Shown: positions 8,622 to 30,331 of the stretch, in pieces
Layout: each line of letters begins with the position of its first letter
How positions within the stretch are numbered: position 1 is the first letter of the stretch
Source: Anaerococcus tetradius ATCC 35098
GTDB lineage: Bacteria; Bacillota; Clostridia; Tissierellales; Peptoniphilaceae
Reading direction: 5' to 3'
Length of the DNA: 64,000 bases
Assembly: GCF_000159095.1 (NCBI RefSeq)
Contig: NZ_GG666295.1
Span: 470,827-534,826, forward strand
Translations under genes and position numbers: made by a program
Notes under the pieces: generated by a model
What the model saw: the letters and a program-made list of their open reading frames with translations, nothing else
The model's database searches: none
What the model was told of the DNA's origin: nothing

Positions 8622-9938
8622 TTATCCTTTATATTTACGAACTTTTTCTTTAAAGTCCTTGCCCCTTAGTTCAAAATTCTTATACATACCCCAAGAAGCA
8701 CTTGCTGGAGATAGGAGGATAACATCACCCTCTTTTGCATTTTCAAAACAGATTCTTATGGCATCTTCCATATCTTCTGCCTCCTTGTAGGCTACTTGGT
8801 AGTTTTCGCACAATTTTTTTAGTTTATCTTTGGTTTGACCCATTATTACCATGAGCTTGCCATTTTTCTTGAAGCTTTTTACATAGTCGGTGTAGTCTAT
8901 GTGCTTATCATAGCCACCTGCAATGATTATCAATGGTTCAGTAAAAGATTCTATAGCCTTGATGGAGCTGTCGACATTTGTTCCTTTTGAGTCATTATAA
9001 ATCTTTACTTTCCTTATGGTATCTACATATTCTAGCCTATGTTCAATGGCTTTAAAGCTCCTTAGGCCTTTTATTATATCTTGGATTTTGATGCCAAAAA
9101 GATAGGTTGACAACAAAGCAACCATTATATTTTCATAATTGTGGCTACCTATTACTGATAATTCGTCAACATCAATTACTTTTATTTCTTCCTTATCCTT
9201 TAGATATATGGCCCCGTCTTTGAGGTAGGCTCCTCTTTCAACTTCATTTTTTGATGAAAATTCATAAACTTGGGCCTTGTAGTCTTTTTTGTGGTCTTGG
9301 AGGATTTTATCCTCGTGATTTATTATCAAAAAGTCATTTTCATCTTGATTTTTTGTAATGTTTAGTTTGGAATTTATATAATCCTCAAAAGAACCATGCC
9401 AGTCTATGTGATCTTCTGTGATATTTGTAATGCAAGCTATATGAGGATGGTAAGTTTTTGTATCGTGAAGCTGAAAGCTTGATAATTCACAAGCAAAAAA
9501 TGCATCTTTGTTGTTATACATTTGCCATAAAATTCCCTCTCCGATATTTCCAACCGCAATAGATTTGATACATGCTTCATTTACTATGTGATTGACCATG
9601 GAAGTGGATGAGGTTTTACCATTAGTTCCTGTAATTGAGATTATTTTTGCCTGAGGATAGAGCCTGTAAGATAGTTCTATGTCAGAAATTATCTCATATT
9701 TTTTGCTAAGTCTACGCACAAGTTCATCTCTTGGTGGGATTCCTGGACTTTTTACTACAAAATCATAGTCAATCTTATCAATTTCACAATCAGAAATAGG
9801 GCTATACTTATAGCCCTCTAAATTTTTATCATCTTTTTTATTTTTGTCATAAGTATAGACTAGGTAGCCCTCTTTAGCAAGGGTTTTAACTGCTGATATT
9901 CCTGTTAGGCCTAGCCCATAAACTAATACTTTCTTCAT
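8622..9938 (-). CDS. murD: UDP-N-acetylmuramoylalanine--D-glutamate ligase
   Basis: MurD adds D-glutamate to UDP-MurNAc-L-Ala in the cytoplasm. The Mur ligase ATP loop TGTNGKTSS is present near residue 106, with ITEDHIDWH and the C-terminal YNDSKGTN region. The ATG at 9938 overlaps the mraY stop as ATGA, which supports this start (MKKVLVYG) over one 27 bases upstream. About 438 residues. It is the only Mur ligase in the cluster; murC, murE and murF must lie elsewhere. Confidence 0.95.
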   Translation of the reverse strand: MKKVLVYGLGLTGISAVKTLAKEGYLVYTYDKNKKDDKNLEGYKYSPISDCEIDKIDYDFVVKSPGIPPRDELVRRLSKKYEIISDIELSYRLYPQAKIISITGTNGKTSSTSMVNHIVNEACIKSIAVGNIGEGILWQMYNNKDAFFACELSSFQLHDTKTYHPHIACITNITEDHIDWHGSFEDYINSKLNITKNQDENDFLIINHEDKILQDHKKDYKAQVYEFSSKNEVERGAYLKDGAIYLKDKEEIKVIDVDELSVIGSHNYENIMVALLSTYLFGIKIQDIIKGLRSFKAIEHRLEYVDTIRKVKIYNDSKGTNVDSSIKAIESFTEPLIIIAGGYDKHIDYTDYVKSFKKNGKLMVIMGQTKDKLKKLCENYQVAYKEAEDMEDAIRICFENAKEGDVILLSPASASWGMYKNFELRGKDFKEKVRKYKG

Positions 9939-10885
9939 CTCAATGCCGCCAATGTTATCATACAAAATATTACTGATACTACAGTGAATCCTTCTACTAT
10001 TTTTTGTTCCTTATATCCCTTGAGTTCAAAATGATGGTGGATAGGGGTCATAAGAAATACCCTTTTCTTATTCCTATACCTATAACTTGTTACTTGGATT
10101 ATTACTGAAAGGGTCTCCAAGACATATATTCCTCCAAAGATAACTAGATATATAGGTATCTTTAGGTTAATGGCTAGGGCAACTACTGCTCCTCCAATCG
10201 CCATAGATCCTGTATCACCCATAAAGACTGCCGCAGGATTTGAGTTAAAGATTAAAAATCCTAGAAGAGATCCAAGCATTATATAAGAAAATACTGCATT
10301 GGATGTGTTCTTGCCAATAATCGCAAGACTTATAAAAACTGGTAGGGATACACTTGCGAGTAATCCATCAAGACCATCTGTAAGATTTGTGGCATTAGTT
10401 GTTCCAACTATTATGAAAATCATCAAAGCAATACCCAAGATACCGAGATTTATCCTTGTGTTTGTGAATGGAATCAATAGGCTAGCTATACTATCTTTAT
10501 CATTTACATAAGCTAAAATTGAAATTATTACAGCTAAGCCAAATTGCAAGACGATTTTCCCCCTAGGGCTTAGTCCTTCGGATTGTTTCAAAACAAGTTT
10601 TCTAAAATCATCTATAAATCCTATAGCTCCAAAGCCTATGGTTGATAAGAGTAAAATCCAAGTATCCAAGGATTTTAGGGGAAGAAATATCAGAGCTAGT
10701 ATGAGTGAGCTTATAATAAAAATTATGCCTCCCATTGTTGGAGTACCAGCCTTAGATAAATGGCTTTTTGGTCCAACTTCTCTGATATTTTGTCCAATCT
10801 TATGTTTCTTGAGCTCGGGTAGGATAATCAGTCCAAGACCGATACTTAAAAAAATACTAATTACTATTAATAAATAAATATTCAT
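9935..10885 (-). CDS. mraY: Phospho-N-acetylmuramoyl-pentapeptide transferase
   Basis: MraY is a polytopic membrane enzyme that attaches phospho-MurNAc-pentapeptide to undecaprenyl phosphate and makes lipid I. Around ten hydrophobic segments are visible. Family motifs are present: GFIDDFRK with the DD pair, TNLTDGLDGLLA, NSNPAAVFMGDTGS and the C-terminal MTPIHHHFE. Length is 316 residues. It starts 2 bases after the ftsL-like gene and ends overlapping the murD start. Confidence 0.97.
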   Translation of the reverse strand: MNIYLLIVISIFLSIGLGLIILPELKKHKIGQNIREVGPKSHLSKAGTPTMGGIIFIISSLILALIFLPLKSLDTWILLLSTIGFGAIGFIDDFRKLVLKQSEGLSPRGKIVLQFGLAVIISILAYVNDKDSIASLLIPFTNTRINLGILGIALMIFIIVGTTNATNLTDGLDGLLASVSLPVFISLAIIGKNTSNAVFSYIMLGSLLGFLIFNSNPAAVFMGDTGSMAIGGAVVALAINLKIPIYLVIFGGIYVLETLSVIIQVTSYRYRNKKRVFLMTPIHHHFELKGYKEQKIVEGFTVVSVIFCMITLAALR

Positions 10886-23277: not shown

Positions 23278-24345
23278 TTATCTGAGAATTTCTTTAGACT
23301 TATTCTCTCCGTATTTTCCAGCGAAAGCTGAAACTACTAGGGCAACAATAAGACCTAGAAAGATTAGGATTGAACCAAGGGATGCTTTCTTTGAAGCACT
23401 TTCTGCTCCTTGTTTTGCATCATCTACTTTTTCGCTTGCTTTGCTTGAAAATTTTTGTATCTCTGCGTTAGCCTTATCAATTGATTCTTCTGCTTTCTTG
23501 GAAGCATCTTGTAGGCCCTTGTAGATATTTTCTGAAACTTCACTAGCTTCTTGTTCTGTAAGACTAGAGTTTAGTGCAAGAGCCCTATCTATAGCATCCT
23601 TATCTGCTGAATTAGATATCTTTTTAGCTTTTTCTTTGAGGGATTCTGTCAAATCTTTGATTATAGCATCCTTATTTTCTGGATTTATAGCTATGTCTTT
23701 GACAGCCTTGGTAATTTCATCTCTTGATTCTTGTAGTTGACCTTCAAGATAATCTGGTTGAAGTTCAGCAACTTCTGTATCTTTTAGGTATTTTTCAAGA
23801 TTATCTTTTAATTCTTTTGTATCTACATCAGAAATTGCTCCTCCGGCTTTTTCAAGTCCTTCACTAAGGGCATCTCCTGTAATATCAGCTACTGAGCTTG
23901 TGATATTAGCAGTCGCACTTCCTATCCCTCCTAAGACTTTACCAAGAACATTACCAGATAAGCCTAAAGCAAGGGCAAGGGTATTAAAAGTTAATGTTAC
24001 TAGAAGTAAAACTGTAAGTGCCCAGCTAATTGCCCCATGAAGCATTCCGGTTGATCTTGCAGCATAACCTGCTATGAAAGCTCCTGCACAAAAGGATAGT
24101 AAAAGTATTACTATAGTTAAAATTCCTGTACCGATTCCTATTCCTGCCATAGGGTTAGCCTTTGTTGGTGCAAATAAACCAAAGCCCAAGGCTGCCGTTA
24201 GTAAGCTTAAAACTGTAAATAGAGCTAAGGCTGTTACTGTTCCAGCAAAGATAGATGCCCAAGACAAATTCTTTCCTGCTTGAATAGGACTTGTTTCTTT
24301 CCTATAAACAGGCCTTTGTGGTCTTCTATTATTTTCTTCTGTCAT
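23278..24345 (-). CDS. Membrane protein with amphipathic helical domain, function unknown
   Basis: A 355-residue protein. After a short polar N-terminus come three or four membrane segments within residues 27-135 (starting WASIFAGTVTALALF, then IGTGILTIVILLLSF and AISWALTVLLLVTL). A long polar, helical, coiled-coil-like region of about 170 residues rich in lysine, glutamate and alanine follows, and a last membrane segment (GSILIFLGLIVALVV) precedes a basic tail. The N-terminal part resembles uncharacterised YrzE/PhnA-like membrane proteins; I do not recognise a function. Its leader holds a perfect 17-bp inverted repeat, suggesting specific regulation. Confidence 0.75.
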   Translation of the reverse strand: MTEENNRRPQRPVYRKETSPIQAGKNLSWASIFAGTVTALALFTVLSLLTAALGFGLFAPTKANPMAGIGIGTGILTIVILLLSFCAGAFIAGYAARSTGMLHGAISWALTVLLLVTLTFNTLALALGLSGNVLGKVLGGIGSATANITSSVADITGDALSEGLEKAGGAISDVDTKELKDNLEKYLKDTEVAELQPDYLEGQLQESRDEITKAVKDIAINPENKDAIIKDLTESLKEKAKKISNSADKDAIDRALALNSSLTEQEASEVSENIYKGLQDASKKAEESIDKANAEIQKFSSKASEKVDDAKQGAESASKKASLGSILIFLGLIVALVVSAFAGKYGENKSKEILR

Positions 24346-24369: not shown

Positions 24370-24410
24370 ATATTCATTTATATTCGTTTTGCTCGAATAT
24401 AAATGAATAT
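24370..24410. repeat. Perfect 17-bp inverted repeat upstream of the membrane-protein gene
   Basis: Arms 24370-24386 and 24394-24410 are exact inverted repeats around a 7-base spacer. Each arm holds two copies of the hexamer ATATTC ten bases apart, so four half-sites are displayed (two direct, two inverted). No T run follows on either strand, so it is not a typical terminator. It lies 25 bases upstream of the start at 24345, in the likely leader or over the start of transcription, and 46 bases after the nuclease gene stop. An operator or an RNA hairpin that affects translation are both possible. Confidence 0.7.
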
Positions 24411-24456: not shown

Positions 24457-25377
24457 TCATTTATTCTTAAATAGCTCCTGCTCTCTTAGAATTTCAGAGA
24501 CCATATCCCTGCCCTTTTGCATCTTTTTTATGTTTTTTATATCGAGGATTATGACATCCTTTTTTATAAGATCTTCCTTGCTTTTTTCTGTTAGATATGA
24601 GGAATTGATAATAAGGACTGGTCTTATCCTAGAATCAATGCCATTAATTTTTTCTATCATTTCTTTTATGAAACTTTCACTTAGATTTTTTTCGAAGTCA
24701 TAGTTTTTTATTTCAATAGCAAAACGCCTATCCTTCTTTTTTGCGTACAAGTCAAATCTGTGGGACTTTTGATATTCTTCCTGGAAGGCTTCCACCTTAT
24801 AGCCACATCTTCTAAAGGCCCTTGCTATAAATTCATCATTAGTAAAGTCCATGATGATTTTTTTGAGGGCCGTAAGAAGATTGGTCGGATTAATTTTAAA
24901 GACTCCCCTATATTCGATATCTTCGCCATATCTTTTGATATCAAAACCTATTACAAGCTTGTTGATTACATTAAAGTTACCATGGGCAATGGCATTTCTT
25001 ACATGCCTTAATAGGGCCATAGTTTTTGTTTCATTATCATCAGCGAGAGTCATAACTAATTTTTGCTCATCAATGCTAACCCTACCCACAAAATGTTTGG
25101 CGAGCTTTTTGTGGATTACATCTGTAATAAGTATATCTTCGTCAGTCATATCCATAGACATCATTATTGCCTTAAAAATATAATCATCATATTCAGGATT
25201 TAGGAGAAGCTCATTTGTTGCTGATTGTTCGGATGAAATGTTTGGAACATACCAAAGTAACATCTTTATTGCTTCGTCCAAATCCTTGTTAAGCTTAAGG
25301 GGAATTGTGGTATGTTTTATTGAAAAATCATATTTTTCCTTGCTTTTATCTATTGCAAACTTTTTACTTATTTCCAT
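24457..25377 (-). CDS. HEPN-motif / PD-(D/E)XK nuclease-like protein
   Basis: A 306-residue protein with two recognisable parts. The N-terminal helical half contains LLRHVRNAIAHGNF (residues 122-135), where R127-N-A-I-A-H132 fits the Rx4-6H pattern of HEPN ribonucleases. The C-terminal half has a restriction-endonuclease-like core: RRCGYKVEAF, then RFDLYAK with D209, then FAIEIKNYDF with E222 and K224, followed by a strand PVLIINSSYL. This order (D, ExK) is that of Mrr-like PD-(D/E)XK nucleases. Its ribosome-binding site AAGGAG is formed by the last codons of the helicase gene, so it is coupled to the cassette. I infer the nucleic-acid-cutting member of the system; neither activity is proven and the HEPN call could be fortuitous. 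Confidence 0.7.
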   Translation of the reverse strand: MEISKKFAIDKSKEKYDFSIKHTTIPLKLNKDLDEAIKMLLWYVPNISSEQSATNELLLNPEYDDYIFKAIMMSMDMTDEDILITDVIHKKLAKHFVGRVSIDEQKLVMTLADDNETKTMALLRHVRNAIAHGNFNVINKLVIGFDIKRYGEDIEYRGVFKINPTNLLTALKKIIMDFTNDEFIARAFRRCGYKVEAFQEEYQKSHRFDLYAKKKDRRFAIEIKNYDFEKNLSESFIKEMIEKINGIDSRIRPVLIINSSYLTEKSKEDLIKKDVIILDIKNIKKMQKGRDMVSEILREQELFKNK

Positions 25378-25380
25378 ATA

Positions 25381-27483
25381 CTACTCCTTAGAAACTCCTC
25401 CCAAAAGATAATCTTCTAGGCCCTCTAGGTCTAATAGGTTATCTACTATATAATTTATTTTAAGCTCTTTTGGTACGAGGATCATGTACTTATTTGCCCT
25501 AAGCAAATTTTCCACAAGCTCCTCCTTAGTCATAAGATATTCTTTTATAGGTATGGATTTTATCTTTTTACTTCTCAGGATATAAAAATTTTTTCTAAGG
25601 CCAGCTCCCCTTATGCTAGAATCTTTTTCATTTACAGTAAAATTGTTTAGCTTACTCAAAGAATTGAGGCAAAGACATATGCTCCTGTTGATTTTGCTAG
25701 ACCTAAATGTCCTAAGGAAATCCCCATCTTCATCAGATGAGATATAAAAACCATCTTCGTTTTTTCCAACATATAATTTATCCAAAAGTTCGTCAATCTT
25801 TTTGCTATAGGAATATTTTGTCCTATCTTTGAGTATTTCCTCCATCCTTATTCTGACTATATCGTTTATATCTTCGATAGAGTTTGATGAGAAGTTGTTA
25901 GCCTTCCCTTCTTCTGCTTTTTCTACATGGATTTTCTTTGTAGCCTTTTGGATTTTGTCAATTTGCCAAACTTGGCCTCCTAGAAATATCCTATCTCCTA
26001 CTCTTATAATATTCGATGGGCAAATGCTTCCGATTTTTGACCTATCATTATAAACTGCATAGGAGTCGGTTAAGACGAATTGATTGTAGAAAGAGCCCAT
26101 CTTCATAAGGCTTTCTGTCTTGATACCTGTTATATACTCACCTTCCAGCCTTTCTATGTAGGCTTCTTCTTCCATGTAAGATTTAATAGCCATAAATTCC
26201 TCATCATCTATGTCCTTAAAGACAGGAAGGCTTTTGTTTAGCTTATTAAATTCATCTAAGGCAAGACCGTTATTTTCAAGGAGGACTGAAAGAATCTGGT
26301 GGGCGAAAAGATCATAAGCTTTTCTAGAAGCTCTTAGCTTATCAAGCCTTCCTTCTTTGAATAAGCTTATTATAGCTAGGGCTTGGACTAGATCCCAAGG
26401 GCTTGTCGCTATTTGATGGAGGATTGACTTGTGGGTCTTTCGTCCAGACCTACCCAATCTTTGGGCAAGGGAAAGGGAACTAAAGCATGATTCATATTGT
26501 AAGATAGAATAAACTGAGCCTATATCGATACCAAGCTCCAGAGTGGAAGTTGCACATATTATAAACTTCTCCCTGTCCGAGTTTTTGGCAAAATCTTCGA
26601 TTTCTTTCCTGCGGATTTTACTAACTGATGAATGATGGGCAAAGATGGAAAGGTCGAAGGAATTTTCCTTGGCCTTATTTTTTAATTTGACAGCCATTTC
26701 TTCTACCTTTTCCCTTGAGTTTGGAAAAACAAGCATAGATCCTTCTTTGGCAAAAGTTAAGATTTGCTCCAAAGTTTTATACCCTATTTCATCTTCTTCT
26801 ATATATGAAAGGCTTGTAAGTAATTCGTTTCTTGACTTGTCGACAAGGATTTGAGTTTTTCTCTTATTATTAAAAAACCCCCTCACCAAATCATAATTCT
26901 CATCGCCCACACTTGCTGATAGGCCGATAAATCTCGGATCTTTTTGGCAGTAGGGAAGAATTCTTCCCAAAAGGCTCCTAAGTTCTCCTCCCCTATTTCC
27001 CGTAAGGAAAGAATGAATTTCGTCAACTATTATAAAGTCAAGTCCAGAAAAAAGTCTCCTCGCTTCTTTGCTTTTATTTACAAAAATCGCCTCCAAGGAT
27101 TCTGGGGTTATCAAGGCTATGCCTGAAGGATTTTCCATTAGCCTATCCTTCCTAGCCTTACTTGACTCACCATGCCAACTAGTTACATTTATGGATAAGT
27201 CCTCGCACATCTTTTCTATCCTCTTAAATTGATCGTTGATTAGGGCAATTAGGGGTGAAATGTACAAAATCCTTAGACCTGTATTAAAATCATTAGCCAA
27301 GGATATGGCTGGCAAAAAGGCGGCTTCAGTTTTCCCCTGGGCAGTTGGCGCTATTAGAATCAAATTATCTTCTGATGAAAAACATTGTTTGATAGAAGCT
27401 TCTTGAATCTTACTTAGGCTAGGCCAAGCATTCTTATAAACATACTCCCTCATGGGTCTAGCTAATAGCATATAGGCGTCCAT
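25381..27483 (-). CDS. Lhr/BrxHI-like SF2 DEAD/DEAH helicase
   Basis: A 700-residue superfamily 2 helicase. Motif I is APTAQGKTE (residues 45-53), motif II is DEIH (154-157), motif III is SAS (189-191), and motif VI is QRLGRSGR (341-348). TSTLELGIDIGSV (motif V region) fits Lhr-type helicases. The C-terminal 300 residues lack a DUF1998 or zinc cluster that I can see. It starts on TAATG with the preceding ATPase gene, a one-base overlap. Related Lhr-like helicases (BrxHI) accompany DUF2791 ATPases (BrxD) in type 2 BREX, and similar pairs occur next to TerB-domain genes (recalled from the literature, not checked). Role inferred: translocation on or unwinding of foreign or damaged DNA. Confidence 0.85.
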   Translation of the reverse strand: MDAYMLLARPMREYVYKNAWPSLSKIQEASIKQCFSSEDNLILIAPTAQGKTEAAFLPAISLANDFNTGLRILYISPLIALINDQFKRIEKMCEDLSINVTSWHGESSKARKDRLMENPSGIALITPESLEAIFVNKSKEARRLFSGLDFIIVDEIHSFLTGNRGGELRSLLGRILPYCQKDPRFIGLSASVGDENYDLVRGFFNNKRKTQILVDKSRNELLTSLSYIEEDEIGYKTLEQILTFAKEGSMLVFPNSREKVEEMAVKLKNKAKENSFDLSIFAHHSSVSKIRRKEIEDFAKNSDREKFIICATSTLELGIDIGSVYSILQYESCFSSLSLAQRLGRSGRKTHKSILHQIATSPWDLVQALAIISLFKEGRLDKLRASRKAYDLFAHQILSVLLENNGLALDEFNKLNKSLPVFKDIDDEEFMAIKSYMEEEAYIERLEGEYITGIKTESLMKMGSFYNQFVLTDSYAVYNDRSKIGSICPSNIIRVGDRIFLGGQVWQIDKIQKATKKIHVEKAEEGKANNFSSNSIEDINDIVRIRMEEILKDRTKYSYSKKIDELLDKLYVGKNEDGFYISSDEDGDFLRTFRSSKINRSICLCLNSLSKLNNFTVNEKDSSIRGAGLRKNFYILRSKKIKSIPIKEYLMTKEELVENLLRANKYMILVPKELKINYIVDNLLDLEGLEDYLLGGVSKE

Positions 27484-28808
27484 TACAAGATTAAGATGTC
27501 CTCGTCATCATCGTGATTAAGTGGATCTTTTTCCACTGGATTTAAAATGCCAGAAAATTTCTTCATAAGGATATCGTCAATTTCTAAATCCTTATTTTGT
27601 CTTTTGATATCTAATATTTCCAAGAAATCTTTGACAACAGCCCTAGGTGTTAGAAACTCCCTAGCTCCAGGTCTGTTAAGTTGTCCTTCCATATAAGTAA
27701 TAATCTGTTCTTTTGTCATAATAAGGGAATCCTTGTAGTTTATATTGTAAATATTTAAAATATTTTCGAGGAGGGTAAAAATCTCCTCTTCACTCAGTGG
27801 CTTTAATATTAGAGCAGTCCTACTGGTGTTTACAAGACTTAAATCTCCCTCAGTACCGAGCCTACCACCAAGGGCTCCATAGGAGCTCATCCCCCTATTT
27901 TTGTCAAAAACTGTCGCCCTTGTAGCTGCAAAATTTACAAAAAGACCCCTAGCCTTATCGCTTTTACATTCGTTATAAATATTTAGGACTCTCTCATAAT
28001 TTCTCTCACGAGTTACAGCTTGGGCAAGCTTATATAGGTTAACCGCTTCATCAAAATTAATAACAAAACCAGAATATCCAATTTCAAGAAATAGTTCCGC
28101 TAAATTCTTTAGGGCTTCGAAATAATTATCATCATTTATAATTTCACCTATGCCAAGCTCTCTTTTGGCCTCAGTTTTAGTTGAAATATCTCCCCTAATC
28201 CAACGGATAGCCTTTATCTTTAGGAGCCTATCGTCATTGATTAAGCCTTCATAATATTTGACTATGGCAGTGCCCAGAGCATATGATAGACCCACAGTCT
28301 TAAATTTTCCTAGGCAATCGAGAATTTCATTTCTAACTTCCTTTTGATAAGACCCCTTGAGCAAATTTTCCATCTGCCAAGAATTCTTTTCGCTAAGTTT
28401 GGCAAAAATTCCCATAAGCCACTCTTCAATTATTTCTTCAATTACATTTCCACTTCTCTGTGTTTTTGTCTTTAGATTATCTATTATCTCCCTATAAAGG
28501 GCTTGGGCCTTCTTGTCGGTCGCATAAAATCTTCTTTGGGGAGCAAGGTCTATGCTAGATGCTACAAAATTTTTGGAAAGGGCTAGTTGCTCGATTGTAG
28601 CAAGCATGAAAGATTTGCCAGAACCGAAGTCCCCTACCCAAAATCTAATATCGCTTGCCCCTTGACTAACCTTATCCAAAATCCCTATAATCTCTTCAAC
28701 TTCCTTGTTTCTACCGACCAAGAGGTGTTCTATGCCAAAGTTAGGTACAACACCTCCTTCCAAAGATTTTATTATTACATCTGCCTGCTTAGGATTTATA
28801 TTTGCCAT
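27483..28808 (-). CDS. DUF2791 (BrxD-like) P-loop ATPase
   Basis: A 441-residue ATPase. The opening (SLEGGVVPNFGIEHLLVGR) matches the DUF2791/BrxD pattern. Walker A is GDFGSGKS (about residues 59-66) and Walker B is FVINFDEA (about 248-255). The late segment LSEEEIFTLLENILNIY is also typical. The ATG at 28808 follows AAAGGAG by 7 bases; a TTG one codon earlier is less likely. It overlaps the TerB_C gene by 20 bases and the helicase by one, so stoichiometric expression of the three is likely. DUF2791 proteins are known mainly from BREX type 2 and from TerB-associated operons; no pglX, pglZ or pglW gene is present here. Confidence 0.85.
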   Translation of the reverse strand: MANINPKQADVIIKSLEGGVVPNFGIEHLLVGRNKEVEEIIGILDKVSQGASDIRFWVGDFGSGKSFMLATIEQLALSKNFVASSIDLAPQRRFYATDKKAQALYREIIDNLKTKTQRSGNVIEEIIEEWLMGIFAKLSEKNSWQMENLLKGSYQKEVRNEILDCLGKFKTVGLSYALGTAIVKYYEGLINDDRLLKIKAIRWIRGDISTKTEAKRELGIGEIINDDNYFEALKNLAELFLEIGYSGFVINFDEAVNLYKLAQAVTRERNYERVLNIYNECKSDKARGLFVNFAATRATVFDKNRGMSSYGALGGRLGTEGDLSLVNTSRTALILKPLSEEEIFTLLENILNIYNINYKDSLIMTKEQIITYMEGQLNRPGAREFLTPRAVVKDFLEILDIKRQNKDLEIDDILMKKFSGILNPVEKDPLNHDDDEDILIL

Positions 28809-30210
28809 CAACTATCTCCTTTACCATTTCTTCATAAAAGGGATCTATCCTTATATATCCATCTTCATTAATCAAAGTCTGATCTCCTGTATAATCGTAC
28901 AATTGGTCATTCATATCCTTTAGGAAAGAATTAAGCATCTTGGAATTACTAAGAGCTATTGATTTTACCTCAGCTTCTGGGATTTCTCCCCTAGCTAGTA
29001 AATCCTTTAAGAATTTATGGGTGAAATCTTCTAGACCCTTATCCCCTTCTTCTTCGGCATTTTCATCTAGCCTATAAGCTTGTTTATCGACTATTTCTTC
29101 TGGGGATAAAGCTTTCTCATCTTCTTCTAAGACAAGGTCATCTCCAATAAAGTCTGTTACTATATTTACTGTTTTATTTAATTCTTTCCTAGATATCTTT
29201 AGTTTTTTGTCATCTATGTCGATTCTTTTTAACTTTTTCTTATCAAGGTCTAAAATTTTATTAATAGTTTCTAGGGATAGGTCTTTTTTTGAAATAATTT
29301 CTAGGAAGCTATCATAATTTTCTTCCAAAATTATTTTAAATAACCTACTCTGAGTAGCCATAGTTGGATTAAAATATTTGTATAGATAATAAAAGCCTAT
29401 GACAAGGCTTGGCTTAAAGCTTTCCTTACTAAGGCCGTTAGCTAGTTCTTTAATCATTGCTTCATCTTTTATCTTAGCCATAAAATCAATTTGTTTAGCT
29501 ACATCACAAGTCTTTATATATCTCAGCCAATCCTTGACTTTTTTAGGATTTTCCCAAAGGTAGTTTTCATAAAGCTTGCTTTTAAGGTCTGGGTCCAAAT
29601 TTTTGTAAAAGACATCTAGCCTTTTTATGAAAAATTCTAATAAGTCTTCTACTCGGTTAGAAATCAAGACTTCTTCTGCTCGACTGCTATCAATATCAGC
29701 AAAAACCCAGAAGTCCTTCCTTAGCCTTTGTTCACTTATAACTAAGAGGCTATCCAATATATTCTTAGAAAGGGTGTAGGGACTTGTATATTTAATGATT
29801 TTTGTGGTATCAATGTCTTCTTGGTCAAAAGATTCTTTAAGTACACTAAGGTAGGATTCAATTAGAATATTTCTTGCTAGGTCGTTTGCCCACAAGTTAT
29901 TATTTCTCTTAGTCACTTGAAGGATTAGCTTAATTTCTTTGTCAGTGAAATTCAAAGACTTTATTAAGTCCTTATAGTCTTCAAAAAAGCCTAAATTTAG
30001 CTGCTTATCCCCTGATTTTTTTCTATTCCACGCATCTAGGCCTTCCTTATTTTTGCTAATTTTTTTACCATCTAATGATATATTTATATGGGTCTTAATT
30101 TTATCATTATTAACTTTCCTCTTAAAGGACTTCTTATGATTTTTGTTATTAATATTAGAAAAATCTTCCAGTAAGCCGTCGATCAAGGAAAATATATCGT
30201 CAATTTTCAT
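28789..30210 (-). CDS. TerB_C-domain protein, first gene of the cassette
   Basis: A 473-residue, lysine-rich protein. Residues 1-75 look disordered and basic. A helical middle follows without a family I can name, then an acidic linker (LDENAEEEGDKG). The last 80 residues match the TerB_C domain: KFLKDLLARGEIPEAEV, then LNSFLKDMNDQLYDYTGD and a final DGYIRIDPF. TerB_C proteins typically carry TerB_N and TerB domains before it; I cannot confirm those here, so this may be a reduced form. A GGGGAGGG site precedes the ATG. Position suggests it is the specificity or adaptor partner of the ATPase and helicase; this is inference. Confidence 0.7.
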   Translation of the reverse strand: MKIDDIFSLIDGLLEDFSNINNKNHKKSFKRKVNNDKIKTHINISLDGKKISKNKEGLDAWNRKKSGDKQLNLGFFEDYKDLIKSLNFTDKEIKLILQVTKRNNNLWANDLARNILIESYLSVLKESFDQEDIDTTKIIKYTSPYTLSKNILDSLLVISEQRLRKDFWVFADIDSSRAEEVLISNRVEDLLEFFIKRLDVFYKNLDPDLKSKLYENYLWENPKKVKDWLRYIKTCDVAKQIDFMAKIKDEAMIKELANGLSKESFKPSLVIGFYYLYKYFNPTMATQSRLFKIILEENYDSFLEIISKKDLSLETINKILDLDKKKLKRIDIDDKKLKISRKELNKTVNIVTDFIGDDLVLEEDEKALSPEEIVDKQAYRLDENAEEEGDKGLEDFTHKFLKDLLARGEIPEAEVKSIALSNSKMLNSFLKDMNDQLYDYTGDQTLINEDGYIRIDPFYEEMVKEIVDGKYKS

Positions 30211-30239
30211 AAGCCCTCCCCTAAAGTCTTCTTCCTTTC

Positions 30240-30267
30240 ATTATACTGCTTCAGAATTTTTTGAGAA
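30240..30267 (-). promoter_or_regulatory. Promoter of the TerB_C-ATPase-helicase-nuclease cassette
   Basis: On the minus strand TTCTCA (forward 30262-30267) and a consensus TATAAT (30240-30245) are 16 bases apart, about 30 bases before the first gene. It lies immediately after the deoA/pdp terminator, so the cassette is an independent unit. Confidence 0.6.
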
Positions 30268-30268
30268 T

Positions 30269-30331
30269 AAAAAAATATGCAAATAAGCTCAACCTTCTTG
30301 GCACTTTCGTCTTAGTCGAGTTTATTTGCAT
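30269..30331 (-). terminator. Intrinsic terminator after the nucleoside phosphorylase gene
   Basis: Arms 30277-30290 and 30318-30331 pair at 13 of 14 positions (atgcaaataa plus ctc) around a 27-base loop. On the minus strand a run of T follows (forward A 30269-30275). The large loop makes it less typical. Confidence 0.6.

Follow-up and report, generated by a model that had tools for sequence, protein, structure and literature searches.

A divergent Shango operon at one site in Anaerococcus and a neighboring core gene for a HEPN-like protein

In this study, we analyzed a window of 64,000 nucleotides from Anaerococcus tetradius ATCC 35098 (contig NZ_GG666295.1; source genome of 2.1 Mb in 100 contigs, 98% complete), in which four genes follow each other closely on the minus strand. 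Judged by their sequences, genes 1 to 3 are the known anti-phage system Shango (SngA, SngB, SngC) in a divergent form. Our preferred explanation, to which we assign a probability of about 0.8, is that they are a vertically inherited Shango operon at one site, probably acting in phage defence, and that gene 4, a core gene of the genus, is separate from it. A preliminary description of this region had combined all four genes to a defence cassette without a name; the four-gene cassette is not a conserved unit. The genes are, in order of transcription:

28789-30210, minus strand: gene 1, SngA-like protein of 473 amino acids with TerB_C at the C terminus (Pfam, PADLOC, alignment of 19 sequences, AlphaFold2 model)
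27483-28808, minus strand: gene 2, SngB, P-loop ATPase of the BrxC/BrxD type (Pfam, PADLOC, sequence)
25381-27483, minus strand: gene 3, SngC, superfamily 2 (SF2) helicase similar to Lhr and BrxHI (PADLOC, Pfam, solved relatives)
24457-25377, minus strand: gene 4, core gene of the genus for a protein with a HEPN part and a PD-(D/E)XK-like lobe (distribution, fold, motif survey)

The tight layout given in the preliminary description was found again in the sequence. The open reading frame (ORF) of gene 2 was called from a TTG at 28811, giving an overlap of 23 bases with gene 1, and an in-frame ATG at 28808 gives the overlap of 20 bases described before. Genes 2 and 3 overlap by one base (TAATG), and genes 3 and 4 are separated by three bases, with AAGGAG at the 3′ end of gene 3 as a ribosome-site-like stretch for gene 4.

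The family identity of the operon follows from the PADLOC models, since genes 1 to 3 match SngA, SngB and SngC, with the SngB and SngC scores exceeding those of BrxD and BrxHI, and the three adjacent co-directional genes have the arrangement expected of Shango. Gene 2 reached 438 bits with SngB (residues 3-418 of 442) versus 141 bits with BrxD, and 383 bits with the Pfam family BrxC_BrxD; Walker A (GDFGSGKS) and Walker B (VINFDEA) motifs were read by eye. No related solved structure was found for SngB by sequence search at E ≤ 0.01. Gene 3 reached 546 bits with SngC (residues 3-690 of 700) versus 355 bits with BrxHI. Pfam returned DEAD and Helicase_C together with a sub-threshold WH_Lhr match, the motifs APTAQGKT, DEIH and QRLGRSGR were recognized by eye, and the best solved relatives, 5v9x and 7lhl, are named ATP-dependent DNA helicase. 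Thereby, the TerB_C ending, the BrxD-like ATPase and the Lhr-like SF2 helicase proposed earlier were recovered by Pfam and PADLOC, and the first three genes do look like a cassette of the defence type. The three-gene core does, however, have a name, as its scores with the Shango models (438, 546 and, for SngA, 67 bits) show.

A stripped remnant of a type 2 bacteriophage exclusion (BREX) system, composed of BrxD and BrxHI, would share the ATPase and helicase families with this operon, and the BrxD and BrxHI models do match genes 2 and 3 (141 and 355 bits). SngC and BrxHI also belong to one helicase clade, in which the phylogeny presented in PMC12278908 further places DruE and DpdJ. However, the Shango models score 3.1 times higher for gene 2 and 1.5 times higher for gene 3, the NCBIfam BrxD match stays below its cut-off (140 versus 350 bits), and the genome carries a single gene of the BrxC/BrxD family and, as already stated in the preliminary description, no PglZ (0 matches in the genome, which is 98% complete in 100 contigs). 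We rejected this explanation because of the lower scores and the missing PglZ match, and regard it as highly improbable.

As in the Shango system of Pseudomonas aeruginosa PA14, the genes lie on the same strand in the order SngA-SngB-SngC, TerB_C is present, and the SngB and SngC models match strongly and nearly over their full lengths. The divergence lies in SngA. Gene 1 matched TerB_C with 47.3 bits (cut-off 26.3) and the PADLOC SngA model with 66.7 bits over profile columns 184-526 of 528, and the Pfam search returned neither TerB_N nor PF05099 (TerB). PF05099 is listed for Shango in PMC10952713; at E ≤ 0.01 it was also missing from all five SngA proteins from elsewhere in the phylum. These five, taken from 20 loci, were compared with 12 Tissierellales proteins (seven from Anaerococcus, five others). 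TerB_N was found in 0/12 Tissierellales SngA versus 5/5 from elsewhere, and TerB_C was above the cut-off in 11 of the 12 (one below) and present in 5/5. The PADLOC SngA model gave 46-87 bits for the 12 versus 145-342 bits for the five, and TM2 segments occurred in two of the 12 and two of the five. Unlike Shango elsewhere, the SngA of the window thus has no TerB_N and aligns with those proteins at the C terminus only. Even within the genus its length varies, with 453-473 amino acids (by the ORF caller) in the five-species clade of the window versus 556-583 in the other 14 Shango-bearing species. In an alignment of these 19 sequences, the SngA of the window lacks an internal block of about 80-130 residues that the 14 have. 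The AlphaFold2 model of the gene 1 product is mostly helical (predicted local distance difference test, pLDDT, 78), and its best match among the PDB structures had an E-value of 1.0.

To follow gene 4 and Shango through relatives, 31 genomes of the genus, one genome per species, were used as congener set. SngB, full-length SngA and full-length SngC occur in the same 19 of them; raw tallies are higher (23/31 for SngA, 30/31 for SngC) because weak matches of short length to other proteins were counted in, and these were set aside. Gene 4 is present in 31/31 genomes and thus in all 12 that lack Shango. In the order, its profile was found in 67 of 249 genomes (E ≤ 1e-8), all in the family of the window, to which the only two hits among 398 genomes sampled in the phylum belong as well. 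Accordingly, 57 named gene-4 loci came mostly from Anaerococcus, Peptoniphilus, Aedoeadaptatus and Urinicoccus, with some metagenome-assembled genomes named to class or phylum only, one Bacillus badius (30% identity) and one partial match from Oscillospiraceae. SngB (E ≤ 1e-60) was found in 29/249 genomes of the order and in 25/398 sampled in the phylum. In the order outside the genus, these thresholds gave 10 genomes with SngB, 36 with gene 4 and none with both.

The loci themselves gave the same picture. Outside the genus, 30 SngB loci were available (10/10 from the order and 20/24 from the phylum sample; 26 of 16.7-19.9 kb, one of 14.0 kb and three of 5.5-10.2 kb). An SngC match was present in 29 of them, and a relative of gene 4 at E ≤ 1e-3 in none. 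Conversely, in the 34 mapped gene-4 loci (L130-L163) a Shango gene was labelled only in L138, an Anaerococcus. L132 also belongs to this genus, and none of the 32 loci outside it has Shango genes beside gene 4; in two of these (L140, L163) no gene-4 ORF was called. Within the genus, 5 of the 19 Shango-bearing congeners have SngC directly next to gene 4 (gaps of 3, 49, 48, 49 and 167 bases by the ORF caller). In the other 14, the two genes are separated by 2-11 ORFs over 1,653-9,856 bp, and in 11 of these species the intervening stretch includes a sensor kinase, regulator and ABC-transporter set, identified as best BLAST matches to ORFs of the window. In two sister species (G019, G020) a natural empty site was found, with gene 4 located 61 bp from the flank gene that lies beyond Shango elsewhere.

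These data bear on the idea, taken over from the preliminary description, that the four genes form a true module, with TerB_C as sensor, ATPase and helicase as remodellers of DNA and the HEPN/nuclease protein as effector. The tight spacing, the ribosome-site-like stretch inside SngC and the intact D..ExK triad and HEPN motif in the genome of the window speak for it, and in 19/19 Shango-bearing congeners no more than about 10 kb separate Shango from gene 4. Against it, gene 4 occurs without Shango in 12/31 congeners, the 36 genomes that carry it in the order outside the genus all lack SngB, and it is missing at 30/30 outside SngB loci. Also, the strict D..ExK residues are found in only 3/31 congeners, and in G030 gene 4 ends about 34 residues early beside open SngABC, with a terminator-like 8-bp stem and T run between gene 4 and SngC. 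We therefore consider a four-gene module unlikely, and the membership of gene 4 in the cassette, which adjoins SngC in 5/19 congeners only, was not upheld. The preliminary description itself had named a fourth gene that fails to stay with the other three as evidence against its proposal, and this is what was observed. With gene 4 read as a separate core gene, it would follow SngC directly in the window because the intervening genes of other species, often the kinase, regulator and transporter set, are missing, probably through a deletion.

Beyond the genus, other defence-like genes were seen near Shango of the same subtype in members of the order: L196 encodes a GmrSD-type protein upstream of SngA at a distance of about 4 kb, and in L198 a gene for a NYN/OST-HTH protein follows SngC after about 0.4 kb. 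Another genus of the family (L192-L195) shows the same two genes (k3 and k10) after SngC in 4/4 loci. Relatives of k3 (222-264 amino acids) occur in 11 of the 30 SngB loci, not always adjoining SngC, and their size would fit an ABC-transporter ATPase.

For the inheritance within the genus, a neighbor-gene tree was built from the S41 peptidase and gene 4. On this tree, the presence of Shango requires two state changes and the adjacency of SngC and gene 4 one change (support 99), the adjacency being the state of one clade. A tree of SngB and SngC has 12 of 16 splits in common with the neighbor-gene tree. Unlike in P. aeruginosa, where Shango is found in a variable hotspot, the operon occupies one site throughout the genus, and it is missing from a whole clade of nine species. 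SngB has the highest mean pairwise identity (0.72), compared with 0.42-0.62 for the neighbors measured, of which the two lowest values, kinase and regulator (0.42, 0.48), mix paralogues. SngA has the lowest (0.40) of the proteins comparable one to one.

Vertical inheritance combined with one fast-evolving component is compatible with an old defence system as well as with a domesticated function. The locus could therefore also be a housekeeping locus for DNA maintenance, descended from Shango and serving replication or repair problems of the cell itself rather than phage defence. The two state changes, the mostly agreeing trees, the single site and the conservation of SngB above the measured neighbors are in line with this. 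However, the absence of Shango from 12/31 congeners including the nine-species clade and the scattered relatives elsewhere (SngB in 29/249 and 25/398 genomes) speak against a housekeeping function, and so does SngA as the fastest-evolving of the proteins comparable one to one, since a component that meets opponents would be expected to change quickly. We see a domesticated housekeeping role as a minority possibility that nevertheless deserves serious weight. The preliminary description had named a housekeeping locus in all relatives as the finding that would speak against a defence cassette; the single site and the apparently vertical inheritance agree with such a locus, its presence in 19 instead of all 31 congeners does not.

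Several observations weigh against a vertically inherited Shango operon for phage defence with an independent gene 4. SngA is only weakly similar to canonical SngA, with a profile-profile alignment confined to the last about 194 columns (probability 95.7, E 9e-9), and TerB_N is missing from it. Four of the 16 tree splits disagree, and the neighbor tree was midpoint-rooted and used gene 4 itself and one neighbor. Of the 12 genomes lacking Shango, three reach a completeness of only 82-89%. The vertical single-site inheritance, together with no other clear defence genes among 10 neighbors, is unlike a typical mobile defence island. Finally, the constant proximity of about 10 kb makes a functional link of gene 4 and Shango in the genus conceivable, and in the genome of the window the distance of 3 bases between SngC and gene 4, together with the ribosome-site-like stretch in SngC, suggests a co-translation of gene 4 with Shango.

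The protein encoded by gene 4 combines two parts. Residues 80-175, including the motif RNAIAH, align with the HEPN family PF18736 (pEK499_p136) with E 0.0013 and 18.9 bits, which is below the curated cut-off of 26.6, so that the HEPN assignment is based on the motif together with a Pfam match under threshold; unlike that family, the protein is fused to a nuclease-like lobe. The predicted model has a pLDDT of 77 and a predicted template modelling score (pTM) of 0.56. With its C-terminal lobe, Foldseek returned Cdn1, AF1548, Can2 and HindIII (best E 6e-4, low template modelling scores), suggesting a PD-(D/E)XK-type lobe. By sequence, no convincing solved relative was found (one at E 0.11). In this lobe the protein resembles the ancillary nucleases Can2, Card1 and Cdn1 of clustered regularly interspaced short palindromic repeats (CRISPR) systems. 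These carry a CARF domain at the N terminus, unlike the HEPN-like N-terminal part of gene 4, and the E-values and template modelling scores of the match are weak and low, respectively. The HEPN and nuclease motifs given in the preliminary description are thus visible, with a HEPN match below threshold and a nuclease lobe based on a predicted fold.

The HEPN ribonuclease motif is defined as RX4-6H. It reads RNAIAH in 31/31 congeners and RN[AS][IL]AH in 29/29 loci with a readable ORF outside the genus. In the window, the D..ExK residues of the nuclease lobe are intact as well. Among the 31 congeners, D..ExK was found in three and E..DxK in nine, the lysine was replaced in 18 (by R in 15, by I or L in three) and the second acidic residue in one; outside the genus, D..(D/E)xK is present in 26/29 loci with a readable ORF. 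Within the genus, the ribonuclease-type motif is therefore invariant, and the PD-(D/E)XK-like lobe departs from the strict catalytic triad in most congeners. Some active enzymes of the PD-(D/E)XK superfamily do without the lysine. Judging from these residues, DNA cutting by the gene 4 product has likely been lost in many congeners. Perhaps gene 4 encodes an independent HEPN protein that acts as ribonuclease under stress, which is a guess from the motif. A second gene-4-like copy with both motifs intact and 30-33% identity was observed elsewhere in G001, G006 and G010 (L082, L083, L084; about 9372-10289), and in Peptoniphilus grossensis (L144) the HEPN gene is split into two ORFs of 158 and 145 amino acids.

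A defence function of the operon is supported by Shango systems from other bacteria. Shango of P. aeruginosa PA14 is described in PMC10250203 as inhibiting several phages when expressed in PAO1, and the same source cites a modest phage inhibition by Shango of Escherichia coli, which according to PMC11096173 is also found on some genomic islands with ApsAB. In the proposed mechanism, SngC would be a DNA-translocating SF2 helicase, and SngB a BrxC/D-type ATPase that may load or drive SngC on foreign or abnormally replicating DNA. SngA, with its constant TerB_C end and its exchangeable, fast-evolving N-terminal part, could be an adaptor or sensor that recognizes or tethers, and SngABC together would slow phage replication. 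A more far-reaching scenario, which we regard as possible but tentative, would be that Shango in Tissierellales has become established as a locus with vertical inheritance, and that helical modules of unrelated origin, some of them with a TM2 segment, have taken the place of the TerB_N half of SngA. Thereby, TerB_C and SngBC would be the constant machine and the SngA N terminus a swappable sensor, and a core HEPN ribonuclease would have been secondarily captured into the operon in one Anaerococcus lineage.

The flanks of the four genes contain the following further features:

30240-30267, minus strand: promoter-like site TTCTCA-16-TATAAT (consensus match only, 10/12)
30277-30331, minus strand: hairpin and subsequent T run resembling a terminator, belonging to the upstream gene (fold z -2.8)
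23278-24345, minus strand: gene flanking gene 4 for a predicted membrane protein, by composition (core neighborhood)

The promoter-like site of the operon sits downstream of the terminator-like hairpin of the upstream gene, so that both elements of the previously proposed promoter directly after a terminator were seen. Such promoter matches are common by chance, with 36 observed in the window versus 28.8 expected (standard deviation 5.5), which is hardly above chance. The hairpin (30331-30277) was not picked up in the general terminator scan, as its loop exceeds the length allowed there. For the membrane-protein gene no Pfam family was found above the cut-off; it adjoins gene 4, or is one gene off, in 30/31 congeners. 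Just upstream of it, at 24370-24410, lies an A+T-rich inverted repeat with perfectly matching arms of 17 bp and a loop of 7 bases (fold z -8.5); among 219 loci, the exact repeat is restricted to those from the genome of the window. Searching 10 other proteins of the window (from 54 ORFs of at least 120 amino acids) against PADLOC revealed no clear defence genes near Shango. A methyltransferase next to valyl-tRNA synthetase matched PADLOC mad2 with 53 bits over 147 of 492 positions and was taken as a generic methyltransferase.

In the literature on Shango that was searched, no account of how the system works was found, and for Anaerococcus together with Shango nothing related appeared, judged by titles. 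The divergent form described here shows that TerB_N can be missing while TerB_C, SngB and SngC stay together, which narrows down the essential parts of the system. The natural empty sites make simple comparisons possible. Also, a core HEPN protein with an invariant ribonuclease-type motif and a drifting nuclease-like lobe points to what may be a little-described protein family of the Peptoniphilaceae.

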